A stretch of DNA of 64,000 bases from the NCBI GenBank assembly GCA_002070205.1, contig MWCU01000035.1, positions 62,001-126,000 on the forward strand, given 5' to 3'. A program made the translations under genes and the position numbers. Within the stretch, counting starts at the first letter, position 1; the number at the start of each line of letters is the position of its first letter. Positions 4,132-22,782 of this stretch are shown piece after piece. Below the pieces are notes generated by a model. It did no database searches. It saw only the letters and a program-made list of their open reading frames with translations, and was not told the DNA's origin. The DNA is from Firmicutes bacterium ADurb.Bin182. GTDB taxonomy: Bacteria > Bacillota > Clostridia > Christensenellales > CAG-138.

Positions 4132-4208
4132 GGGGTTATAGCTCAGCTGGTCAGAGCGCTACGTTGACATCGTAGAGGTCGTTGGTTCGATCCCAACTAA
4201 TCCCACCA
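4132..4208 (+). tRNA. tRNA-Val (anticodon GAC)
   Basis: A 77-base cloverleaf with acceptor arms GGGGTTA and TAATCCC (one G-U pair), D arm GCTC/GAGC, and anticodon stem CTACG/CGTAG around loop TTGACAT, giving anticodon GAC. The T arm is GTTGG/CCAAC with TTCGATC, and the 3' CCA is encoded. Confidence 0.95.
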
Positions 4209-4209
4209 A

Positions 4210-4380
4210 TAAATCCTGAGGTGTTCGTCACGCTTTAGTTATAAACCCACAAAGTGACGTCGGGAGCACGGGTTGAAGGAGCCTAAGCCACCGCTTAAGC
4301 GGTAAGCTGAAGCCTGCACAGTGCACCCACCTGCCGAGAGGCGGGTGTTATAACAGAGGCGAACGGCACCATGGGATTGA
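4210..4380 (+). ncRNA. ssrS: 6S RNA-like (RNA polymerase-binding) transcript
   Basis: A non-coding stretch of about 170 bases lies between two tRNA genes. Its ends pair: AATCC, GGTG and TTCG at 4212-4227 match CGAA, CACC and GGATT at 4360-4378. Internal pieces resemble clostridial 6S RNA: CGGGAGCACGGGTTGAAGG in the 5' half, the palindromic CCGCTTAAGCGG, and CTGCCGAGAGGCGGG plus TAACAGAGGCGAA in the 3' half, which would form the long helix with a central bubble. 6S RNA sequesters sigma-A RNA polymerase in stationary phase. A covariance search with the 6S/SsrS model would settle it. Identification is by pattern and size only. Co-transcription with the flanking tRNAs, with release by tRNA processing, is my inference. 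Confidence 0.75.
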
Positions 4381-4395
4381 TTTACAAAAGATTAA

Positions 4396-4469
4396 TGCGG
4401 AATTGTGTAATGGTAGCACCTACGACTCTGACTCGTATTGTCTAGGTTCAAATCCTAGTTCCGCAGCCA
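4396..4469 (+). tRNA. tRNA-Gln (anticodon CTG)
   Basis: A 74-base cloverleaf with acceptor arms TGCGGAA and TTCCGCA. The first pair is U-A, as is usual for tRNA-Gln. The anticodon stem TACGA/TCGTA encloses loop CTCTGAC, giving anticodon CTG. The T loop is TTCAAAT, the discriminator is G and CCA is encoded. Confidence 0.94.
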
Positions 4470-7776: not shown

Positions 7777-7796
7777 TGTAATAGGTCGTCGGAAAT

Positions 7797-7907
7797 AAAA
7801 AGGCATATTATAGCGTAGGTCGGTACGACAGATTTTCCGCGAGGCAGGAAACCGGGCTCTGCTTGTGAGACAGCGCTCGAAAAAATGGAAGCAAAATCCG
7901 CCTTTTT
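7797..7907. other. Structured-looking intergenic block closed by a long-range stem
   Basis: AAAAAGGC (7797-7804) can pair with GCCTTTTT (7900-7907) across about 95 bases that contain further short complementary runs and G-rich patches. The T tract of the 3' arm could act as a terminator for the upstream M20 gene. It might be a small RNA or another repeat family. I do not recognise it, and it does not resemble the neighbouring repeat at 7918. Confidence 0.35.
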
Positions 7908-7917
7908 AAAAAAGCAT

Positions 7918-8253
7918 AACGCACCCGCTAGGTGCGTTCAGCGTGTCGAAGAAGTCTGAACAGGCTTCTTCGAGTTCTCCACGTCGTCAAAAACAAGATT
8001 TTTGACTACCTAAAATCAGAGATTTCCGGGCGGCAAAGCGTGCAAAGTACGAAATCCTTACGGATTTCATCCGTTTCACCGTGTAGTCGCTGATGACGGA
8101 ACGTATCAGCGACCATGCCGCTCTACGGATTACATCCGTCACGGCCGTCTGAAAATTAAGGGGTCCCGCGGAAATCAAAGATTTCCGCCAGCCCCTTAAT
8201 AATCCCCAATGGCTTTTTCGACAGTCTCAATGCACCTGTAAGGTGCGTTTTTT
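7918..8253 (+). repeat. Terminator-bracketed intergenic repeat element, copy 1
   Basis: A hairpin-rich, non-coding element. The left hairpin is AACGCACC/GGTGCGTT (7918-7938). The right hairpin has the same GCACC/GGTGC arms and ends in a T tract (8232-8253). Inside are serial stem-loops: CGAAGAAG/CTTCTTCG (7947-7972), GTCAAAAA/TTTTTGAC (7986-8006), GAAATCC/GGATTTC (8051-8068), GTCGCTGAT/ATCAGCGAC and TTAAGGGG/CCCCTTAA with GCGGAAATC/GATTTCCGC inside. Two internal segments recur in inverted orientation at 21533-21700: 7944-7963 (19 of 20 bases) and 8021-8049 (27 of 29). The inner ends are imperfect inverted repeats (TTCGACA plus a few bases before the hairpin). No transposase is encoded, so it is MITE-like at most. 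Confidence 0.75.
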
Positions 8254-8394
8254 GTTTCCCTTCAATAGGCAAATTCTTTATTATCTGGCACTATTAGTAA
8301 TAATTACAATTAGTATTTAGTTCGCTGTAATGATATGCTTTATCCAGTTACAAACATAAATTACATAAATATTATTACAAAAGGAGGAATAATT

Positions 8395-9735
8395 GTGTTT
8401 AGCAAAAGGTTTGCCGCATTGTTTTTGGCAATAATGCTTATATTAGGCATTGCCGGCGAGGCGATGGCGTCAGATGATGATTTCCGGGTTCGCGTGACTG
8501 TCGCTCCTGAAAAGGGAGGGACCGTAACCGGTGCCGGTTCTTATAATTACGGCGAAGAGGTTACATTAACGGCGATACCTAACGAAGGTTATGTGTTTGT
8601 AAAATGGACTTGGTCGGGCTCTAAACCGGGTTCCGATCCCGATCCGTCGCTGGAGAACCAACAAAGCCTTACTTTTGAAGCGACCAGAGACATTGAATTT
8701 ACTTGCCACTTTAAAAAAACATCTACCTATACAGCATCATTCGATCCTAACGGAGGCACCGGCTCTGTTGATGACATAACCGGTCTTTCAGAAGGCGAAA
8801 CCGTTACTCTTCCCGGCGGAGAAGGTCTTTCGAGAGAAGCATATACATTCAAGGGATGGTCGACGGCTCCGGACGGACCCGTAATATCTGAATACACTAT
8901 GGAAGCATCGAACGTAACGTTCTATGCCGTCTGGGAAAAGATACCGACCTATACCGCATCGTTCGATCTTAACGGAGGCACCGGCTCTGTCGACGACATG
9001 ACCGGTCTTCCGGAAGGCGAAACCGTCACTCTGCCCGGCGGAGCGGGTCTTTTGAAAGAAGGATACACGTTCAAGGGGTGGTCAACGGCTTCAAACGGAC
9101 CCGTTATATCGGAATACACGATGGAAGCATCGAACGTAACGTTCTATGCCGTTTGGGAAAAGATACCCACCTATACCGCATCGTTCGACCTTAACGGAGG
9201 CACCGGCTCTGTTGATGACATAACCGGTCTTTCGGAAGGCGAAACCGTCACTCTTCCCGGCGGAGAAGGTCTTTCGAGAGAAGGATACACGTTCAAGGGG
9301 TGGTCGACGGCTCCGTACGGACCCGTAATATCGGAATACACTATGGAAGCATCGAATGTAACGTTCTATGCCGTCTGGGAAAAGATACCGACCTATACTG
9401 CATCGTTCGACATTAACGGAGGTACGGGCAGGGTCGATGACATAACCGGTCTTTCGGAAGGCAAAACCGTTATTCTGCCCGACGGAGCGGGTCTTTCGAG
9501 AAAAGGATACAAATTCAAGGGATGGGCATTCCATAACGGTAAAGTCATAAAGGGTTCGTTCACTATGCCGGATCACGACGTCACTCTGTTTGCTGTTTGG
9601 GTATCCGACTCGGCGGTAGAACCCCCGAAATCGGGCGACGGCATAGACTTGACAGGCTTAAATATGATGCTCGGTGCGCTTGAATTATCAGCGTTTATGG
9701 CACTTAGAAAACGCGAAAGCGAATCGACCAAGTAA
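8395..9735 (+). CDS. Secreted InlB B-repeat (Listeria-Bacteroides repeat) protein
   Basis: A predicted cell-surface protein of 446 aa. The signal peptide runs from a basic start (FSKR) through a hydrophobic core to an A-x-A site before SDDDF (about residues 1-24). An early Gly-rich divergent InlB-type domain (about 28-108) precedes four 74-residue B-repeats, each with FD.NGGTG, FKGW, Y.M and FYAVW. The C-terminus has PKSGD, a hydrophobic stretch and a basic tail, resembling a sortase signal, but the LPxTG form is not intact. GTG 8395 is chosen because AGGAGG lies just upstream and it begins the signal peptide; an ATG 20 codons earlier lacks these. A role in adhesion is inferred from the family only. 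Confidence 0.85.
   Translation: MFSKRFAALFLAIMLILGIAGEAMASDDDFRVRVTVAPEKGGTVTGAGSYNYGEEVTLTAIPNEGYVFVKWTWSGSKPGSDPDPSLENQQSLTFEATRDIEFTCHFKKTSTYTASFDPNGGTGSVDDITGLSEGETVTLPGGEGLSREAYTFKGWSTAPDGPVISEYTMEASNVTFYAVWEKIPTYTASFDLNGGTGSVDDMTGLPEGETVTLPGGAGLLKEGYTFKGWSTASNGPVISEYTMEASNVTFYAVWEKIPTYTASFDLNGGTGSVDDITGLSEGETVTLPGGEGLSREGYTFKGWSTAPYGPVISEYTMEASNVTFYAVWEKIPTYTASFDINGGTGRVDDITGLSEGKTVILPDGAGLSRKGYKFKGWAFHNGKVIKGSFTMPDHDVTLFAVWVSDSAVEPPKSGDGIDLTGLNMMLGALELSAFMALRKRESESTK
8725..9602 (+). repeat. Four tandem 222-bp coding repeats
   Basis: Units begin at 8725, 8947, 9169 and 9391, exactly 222 bases apart, each starting with ACCTATAC. The first three are close to identical at the DNA level including many third positions, and the fourth has diverged in its second half. 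This implies recent duplication or ongoing gene conversion and predicts repeat-number variation between strains. Confidence 0.9.
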
Positions 9736-21467: not shown

Positions 21468-21532
21468 ACGCGGTCAAGAAAAATATGCTTTTAAAATGCT
21501 CCGGGCAATACCGGCAGGATTTGACAAAAATC

Positions 21533-21700
21533 AGCGCCGGCGAATCGCCGGCGCTTCAGTCTGTTAAAAATCCATGTAGGGTATTATTACTGTGCACGCT
21601 TTGCCGGCCGGAAATCTTCGTACTTAGGCAAAGTGTGAAAAAGAGGTCTGTTCAGATTTCTTCGACATTCAAAAGCGCCGGCGATTTGCCGGCGCTTTTT
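21533..21700 (-). repeat. Terminator-bracketed intergenic repeat element, copy 2 (inverted)
   Basis: It lies between the convergent XDH operon and the lipoprotein gene. The left hairpin has arms AGCGCCGGCGA/TCGCCGGCGCT (21533-21555). The right hairpin has the same core with arms GCGCCGGC/GCCGGCGC, flanked by A and T tracts (21671-21700), and reads as a bidirectional terminator. The interior of about 115 bases matches copy 1 on the opposite strand at 21648-21667 (19 of 20) and 21588-21616 (27 of 29). It is shorter than copy 1 because the part after 8049 in copy 1 is missing. Confidence 0.75.
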
Positions 21701-21717
21701 TCGTTTAACGATTATTC

Positions 21718-22782
21718 TTACTCAACGACGGTGACTTTGGCGATTGTTACGCCGAGATCGTTTGCGGTTTCGGCATCAGTATCCTTGAGGATATTTACTT
21801 CACCGGCTACCATTTTAGCATACAGAGCGTCGTAATCGGCCTTGCTGAACGTGGTGAATTTAGACGTCTCCATAGGAAGCTTAACGCCCTGGTTTGAAGC
21901 GTCGAACACAAGGCCCTGGCCTCCGGGGAACTTGCCTTCATAATACTGCGCAAGAAGCTGTTCGGTCGCTTCTCCGATGCCTTTCATTGCGGAGGTTATA
22001 ACGGACTCGGACAGGAAGCTTTGATCCACGTCCACGCCTATGGATTTTTTGCCCGCAGCTTCCGCAGCGGCGAATACCGAGAAGCCGACAGCACCGCCGC
22101 AGCCGAAAATGACTTCGGTGCCGCCCTTATACCATGAAGCGGCAAGAGCCTGAGCCTCGGGCGTCTGTTCGAATCCGCCGGTGTAGTGATACATTATGTC
22201 GATAGAGTCTAAGCCCGATTCGGCGGCAGCCGCCTCGGCGCCCTGAACGAAGCCGTAACCGAAGCGAACGACCGCGGGAACGGCCATACCGCCCATGAAT
22301 CCGAGTTTTGTATAGCCGTCTTTAACGGCGGCATAGCCTGCGAGATAGCCGGACTGCTCTTCCGCAAACACAACGCCGACAACGTTTTTATTTGTGCGGA
22401 ATTCGGAGTAATCGGCGTTATGCGGATTACCGTCGATCAGAATAAAGGTCACGTCGGGATACATATCCTGCGCGATGAATATCGGCTCCTCAAAAAGGTA
22501 CCCGGGCGTCGCGATGATTTTCGCACCGTTTTCGACAGCCAGTTCAATGGACGCAAGATAAGCATCTGTTGATTGTTCGGTGGGTTGATAGTACTTGTGG
22601 CTGATTTTGTTGGCTTCGGCATACCTTACAATGCCTTCCCATGTTCCCTGGTTAAAGGATTGATCGTCGATGGTTCCGATATCCGTAATCATCGCGATCT
22701 CATAGGTTTCTTTGGCCGGAGCGCAAGCTGCAAGGGCAAAGCTCATAGCCAACACCAGAGTTAGAGCGATTACCTTTTTCAT
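21718..22782 (-). CDS. BMP/PnrA-family nucleoside-binding lipoprotein
   Basis: A 354-residue substrate-binding lipoprotein of the BMP (Med/PnrA) family, which delivers purine nucleosides to ABC importers in several bacteria. The signal peptide ends in lipobox LAAC at residues 16-19. Family hallmarks are the ITDIGTIDDQSFNQGTWEG region (about 32-50), ATPGYLFEEP, GFMGGMAVPAVVRFGYGF, GCGGAVGFSV and GVDVDQ. The start is ATG 22780-22782, preceded by AGGAGG; a frame extending 25 codons upstream is not needed. No permease or ATPase gene is nearby, so partners must be elsewhere. Its convergence with the hydroxylase operon supports purine uptake feeding that pathway, by inference. Confidence 0.9.
   Translation of the reverse strand: MKKVIALTLVLAMSFALAACAPAKETYEIAMITDIGTIDDQSFNQGTWEGIVRYAEANKISHKYYQPTEQSTDAYLASIELAVENGAKIIATPGYLFEEPIFIAQDMYPDVTFILIDGNPHNADYSEFRTNKNVVGVVFAEEQSGYLAGYAAVKDGYTKLGFMGGMAVPAVVRFGYGFVQGAEAAAAESGLDSIDIMYHYTGGFEQTPEAQALAASWYKGGTEVIFGCGGAVGFSVFAAAEAAGKKSIGVDVDQSFLSESVITSAMKGIGEATEQLLAQYYEGKFPGGQGLVFDASNQGVKLPMETSKFTTFSKADYDALYAKMVAGEVNILKDTDAETANDLGVTIAKVTVVE

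Follow-up and report, generated by a model that had tools for sequence, protein, structure and literature searches.

The window analyzed here is a stretch of 64,000 nucleotides (G000:C35:62001-126000) from a draft assembly of Firmicutes bacterium ADurb.Bin182 (2.65 Mb in 127 contigs). Two copies of a repeat lie within it, and their boundaries, set by comparing copies, are listed with their internal features in Table 1. Neither copy, at the lengths given there, holds a transposase; no open reading frame (ORF) of at least 100 aa runs across copy 1, and the single such ORF spanning copy 2 (21485-21835) is incidental. Elsewhere in the window, a 6S RNA gene is located between two tRNA genes (4132-4466). 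Another large, imperfect hairpin (AAAAAGGC...GCCTTTTT) occupies 7795-7918 between the upstream gene and copy 1, this stretch folding at -31 kcal/mol, and an ORF just 3' of copy 1 (8335-9735) contains 222 bp tandem repeats encoding repeats of the Listeria-Bacteroides type (TIGR02543).

Table 1. Features of the two repeat copies, in window coordinates
Feature	Position	Strand	Details
Putative target-site duplication, left of copy 1	7918-7938	.	AACGCACCCGCTAGGTGCGTT; stem-loop AACGCACC-CGCTA-GGTGCGTT; fold -11.3 kcal/mol
Copy 1, MITE-like element	7939-8228	+	290 nt, CAG to CTC; from copy comparison
Copy 1, left TIR and subterminal hairpin H1	7939-7974	+	CAGCGTGTCGAAGAAGTCTGAACAGGCTTCTTCGAG; layout as in IS1182 left ends, e.g., CAGTCTGTCGAAAAAGTCCAGTTTATGCTGGGCTTTTTTG in L127
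Copy 1, conserved covarying core, helices H2-H5	7992-8156	+	covariance model R1, 60.1 bits, E 1.7e-16
Copy 1, right TIR	8213-8228	+	CTTTTTCGACAGTCTC
Putative target-site duplication, right of copy 1	8229-8249	.	AATGCACCTGTAAGGTGCGTT; stem-loop AATGCACC-TGTAA-GGTGCGTT; fold -10.4 kcal/mol; outer U-tract then to 8253
Putative target-site duplication, copy 2, low-coordinate side	21533-21556	.	AGCGCCGGCGAATCGCCGGCGCTT; fold -20.3 kcal/mol
Copy 2, internally deleted, inverted relative to copy 1	21557-21670	-	114 nt; R1 match 21530-21639 (-), 33.2 bits
Putative target-site duplication, copy 2, high-coordinate side	21674-21697	.	AGCGCCGGCGATTTGCCGGCGCTT, then TTTT; fold -19.1 kcal/mol

The blocks that the initial annotation described as shared by the two elements were present and inverted, with a best 29-mer of 27/29 against at most 19/29 in shuffled controls. 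The imperfect inverted repeat noticed at the inner ends was borne out as a terminal inverted repeat (TIR), CAGcgTGTCGAAgAAG...CTTTTTCGACAGtCTG. The description of a terminator on both sides of each copy held in part: hairpins fold on both sides, but in copy 1 the tracts are found on the outer faces (a U-tract after the right hairpin and an A-tract before the left). The left and right brackets of copy 1 are identical at 17 of 21 positions.

The covariance model of the core, run on the window, found copies 1 and 2, and its two weaker extra matches were the same places on the opposite strand. No known Rfam family matched the repeat at or above its gathering threshold; a miRNA family scored 27.7 bits against a cut-off of 90, a match attributable to chance.

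Copies in the host genome and in other genera

Searching the genome with 7918-8253 returned approximately 40 related places, many of them cut by contig ends, with copies in both orientations relative to the contig. Homology among copies extended from query position ~20-22 to ~310-313, i.e., it ended just inside the hairpins, which lie outside the homology. For each of the 19 copies whose two ends fall on a single contig, the 40 nt outside the left end were compared with the 40 nt outside the right end. Hairpin pairs alike within a copy and unlike between copies, as had been proposed for the two window elements, were found in the wider set as well: 14 of the 19 had the same stem-loop on both sides, and the stem-loop differed from copy to copy. 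Bracket scores summed to 297.5; none of 100,000 permutations reached this value, the highest being 210, and cross-copy flank pairs had a mean score of 5.4. In L019, a perfect 27 bp palindrome, GAACGGGCGGACAGTGTCCGCCCGTTC, flanks the element at either end. Three additional copies are interrupted by contig ends and have the same hairpin on both halves, where we infer that the halves join across contigs (L006 with L014, L027 with L008, and L009 with L026). Copies without a matched bracket were L011, L012, L015, L024, and L197. A pattern search for ACTGTCGAAAAAG with two mismatches allowed performed no better than its reversed-pattern control and was therefore not used as evidence.

In some host copies (L006, L008, L014, and L027, on contigs C76, C32, C38, and C79, respectively), a 31 bp unit, CGCTGATGACGGAACGTATCAGTCGATAAGT, is repeated head to tail in the interior; the array extends as far as the contig ends, where it probably interrupted the assembly. 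Three others (L003, L005, and L007, on C71, C22, and C37) are inserted in a hairpin of an apparent other dispersed repeat (CTCCCCTTGCAAGGGGAGCC with AGCTTAGATGCACCCC nearby), as if this were a favored target.

In other genera, 80 MITE copies from 13 genomes were sampled, and their flanks were compared at a threshold score of 12. This score was reached by 22 of the 80 copies versus 19 of 1908 cross-copy comparisons. Hairpins abut the TIRs in the strong copies (L269, L275, L312, L317-L320, and others); a few copies (L283, L286) had high flank scores, but their duplications are not clear stem-loops. At score 12, the remaining 58 copies had no matched bracket. Decay, recombination, or mis-set boundaries may account for missing brackets here and in the 5 of 19 host copies.

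One insertion could be traced to a site without the element. The copy at L332 (in genome G083) is located beyond the 3' end of a gene that is conserved among four sister species and has the layout GAAGAACGTTAGTCA-hairpin-element-hairpin, with G083 reading GAAGAACGTTAGTCAGGGCCGTCCCGTTTGGGGCGGCCTT-element-GGGGCCGTCCCGTTTGGGGCGG. At the orthologous site, the element is missing from all four sister species (G082, G085, G084, and G020), where GAAGAACGTTAGT precedes a single terminator-like hairpin; this is the kind of single-hairpin empty site that the initial annotation had suggested looking for in relatives. An empty-site search in the genus of G035 yielded no orthologous site.

Autonomous IS1182-family elements and identity of the repeat

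Within the same bacterial family, a search with NF033551 (IS1182 family transposase) identified elements in relatives, and several of these elements have the MITE's TIR beside hairpins. Scanning contigs with an alignment of four of these elements gave 80 loci, mostly in Clostridia. The transposases score above the NF033551 IS1182 cut-off and contain DDE_Tnp_1_6 and DUF772 domains. IS ends were set using the TIR motif; automatic inverted-repeat detection had taken target palindromes for TIRs. Both TIRs were placed in 52 IS elements, and direct repeats of 20-36 bp abut CAG...CTG in 31 of these, with zero mismatches in 28 of the 31. When the single-copy site was reconstructed, the palindrome center coincided with the repeat center in 30 elements and was half a base off in the other. 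Direct-repeat length was correlated with stem-loop length (Spearman 0.70, P 1e-5), and where the stem runs on into the A/T tracts, the cut falls inside the stem. As a control, flanks were compared between elements, and the matched-repeat score was reached in 1 of 2550 pairs. The outer sides of the 31 elements are enriched in T and A (3.97 and 4.65 of 8, versus 2.32 and 2.23 at the IS ends).

L121 and L122, both among the 31, have one common hairpin and may represent one insertion seen in two records. Duplication was absent in 21 of the 52 elements, most of which have a hairpin on each side with different sequences, a pattern that inter-copy recombination or assembly errors at repeats would produce. 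Elements of another IS1182 branch (L088 in G106 and L089 in G093) have the seeming end GGGGCTGTtAAAAA with a hairpin nearby.

The TIR of the MITE (CAGcgTGTCGAAgAAG / CTTTTTCGACAGtCTG) matches that of the autonomous IS1182 elements (CAGnCTGTCGAAAAA / TTTTTCGACAGnCTG). Common to both are a left-end layout in which a hairpin begins inside the TIR, a stem-loop target, and stem-loop duplication. Genome G083 holds both, with IS elements at L090 and L103 (L103 lies between two copies of one hairpin) and MITEs with matching TIRs at L277-L281. Our preferred reading of the element is an IS1182-type MITE that duplicates an entire stem-loop as its target site. Judging from sequence comparison, we place at roughly 85% the probability that the repeats represent a MITE mobilized in trans by a palindrome-targeting DDE transposase of the IS1182 family, with the whole stem-loop duplicated; the enzyme acting in trans would be the IS1182 transposase. 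Insertion into terminators with duplication of the hairpin, one of two origins offered in the initial annotation, is supported by the 14 of 19 matched brackets, the single-hairpin site in four species, and the 20-36 bp IS duplications. That annotation contained neither the identity of the element nor its family-wide covarying core.

No autonomous partner of the matching IS1182 subfamily was present in the host assembly (a draft in 127 contigs), while partners are present in relatives, e.g., G083; in the host, the partner is therefore absent, unassembled, or lost. Two host candidates were rejected: a contig-edge IS1182 fragment on C111 (L061), which belongs to another IS1182 branch without a matching end, and phage contig C108, which has two chance TIR-like sites and frames resembling phage structural genes, with no transposase seen. 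The lack of a matching IS1182 gene in the host assembly could point instead to a non-IS1182 enzyme that shares the TIR motif and hairpin targeting by chance, as could the fact that no counterpart of the MITE core was noted in the IS elements. We consider such an enzyme unlikely, given that the TIR, the subterminal hairpin, the unusual target, and the duplication type are all common to the MITE and IS1182, and that the two occur together in G083.

Two other explanations would dispense with insertion, or with mobility altogether. Were the repeat a resident structured RNA gene or regulatory 3' UTR module with its own terminators, and not a transposon, its strong conserved covarying structure and terminator context would be expected; that reading is very improbable in view of ~40 dispersed copies, unrelated hairpins at each copy, the TIRs, the empty site, and both contig orientations. 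The empty-site and bracket data oppose a resident module as the sole explanation, and such a role can coexist with mobility. Least probable of all is that the flanking terminators were made alike later by gene conversion or recombination, the former being the other origin offered in the initial annotation. Imperfect hairpin pairs, such as the 17/21 match in copy 1, are what conversion or decay would leave, but the exact duplications abutting TIRs with zero center offset in autonomous elements, together with the lone hairpin that four species carry where the element has not inserted, argue against it. Gene conversion is not needed, and it explains neither stem-loop-centered duplications nor single-hairpin sites.

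Covarying core, proposed mechanism, and related systems

The core was aligned for 26 copies from several genera. Its four helices pair in 97.4% of cells, with 12 pairs changed on both sides, and pairing falls to 31-55% when the partner is slid by 1-3 columns; related sequences can beat shuffles without structure, and these slid controls retain relatedness. Folding energies of two single copies also lie well below those of shuffles (z -8.4 and -8.0). A U-G pair retained in 25 of 26 copies weakly favors plus-strand RNA over DNA. The core covariance model matched 60 of 103 genomes of the family (17 of 26 genera), and class-wide, among 391 genomes under stricter filters, it matched one genome besides the host, weakly. 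Selection may act on the core structure either at the RNA level or, in the service of transposition, at the DNA level. A tentative and rather doubtful extension is that the MITE body is a selected structured RNA that stem-loop-duplicating IS1182 transposition has spread to the 3' UTRs of numerous genes within one bacterial family, while the doubled hairpins preserve termination at the outer face.

In the mechanism we propose, IS1182 transposase would act in trans on a palindrome, usually an intrinsic terminator, presumably recognized as a cruciform or stem-loop. DDE joining would take place at the 5' feet of the stem-loop, in an order of strand joining that we infer, and repair would duplicate the stem-loop. 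Gap repair would copy the entire stem-loop so that a 20-36 bp hairpin abuts each element end, and the A- and U-tracts of the old terminator would remain on the outer faces, where transcription would presumably terminate after insertion. The element boundaries, the common TIR, the palindrome-centered stem-loop duplication, and one uninserted single-hairpin site are evident from comparison of copies and relatives. Some IS1182 members target palindromes, according to a review as cited in PMC5678879 and PMC4923244. Stem-loop duplication was drawn as a theoretical branch in Fig 13 (pathway b) of PMC5678879, with deletion proposed for IS1272. Blunt deletion without duplication was described for IS1272 and TnSha1 in PMC4923244, and several targets were confirmed as terminators by RNA-seq.

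The closest likeness is thus to the IS1182 family itself (NF033551; IS1272 and TnSha1 of staphylococci; PMC5678879, PMC4923244), a DDE transposase family in which, as here, the target is chosen by stem-loop shape and not by sequence. For IS1272 and TnSha1, as here, the target is often a transcription terminator and insertion occurs in both orientations. Insertion of these elements reportedly removes the hairpin wholly or in part and leaves no target duplication, whereas here the whole hairpin is duplicated; the inverted-repeat-replacing mode of IS1272, in which the stem-loop is removed without duplication, was not what we found. Bacterial MITEs in general (reviewed in PMC10969869) resemble the repeat in being short, non-coding, TIR-bounded, intergenic, structured, and multicopy with internally deleted derivatives; IS1182 goes unmentioned in that review, and the passages drawn on here describe no hairpin-sized duplication. 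REP elements are likewise dispersed intergenic palindromes, but here the core is multi-helix and TIR-bounded and the edge palindromes are site-specific. Group IIC introns insert beside terminator hairpins. They share these neighbors with the repeat, but no target duplication is expected of them and TIRs are present here; group II intron RNA gave no Rfam match, either across the window at the gathering threshold or within 7900-8270 when E values as high as 1 were allowed.

Searches of an open-access library turned up no account of stem-loops being duplicated systematically; this coverage was confined to open-access papers, and priority is therefore not claimed. Transposons that read DNA shape are rare, and in the outcome reported for IS1272 the target hairpin is lost. 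The duplicating outcome, drawn as an alternative in PMC5678879, seems frequent among Clostridia: in 31 cases, the duplication has a variable length that is set by the stem-loop. This dependence makes a structure-guided cut directly testable. Copying of the whole hairpin, one per side, shows how an insertion can spare the terminator that it strikes, and suggests that terminator preservation is the reason such elements are tolerated.
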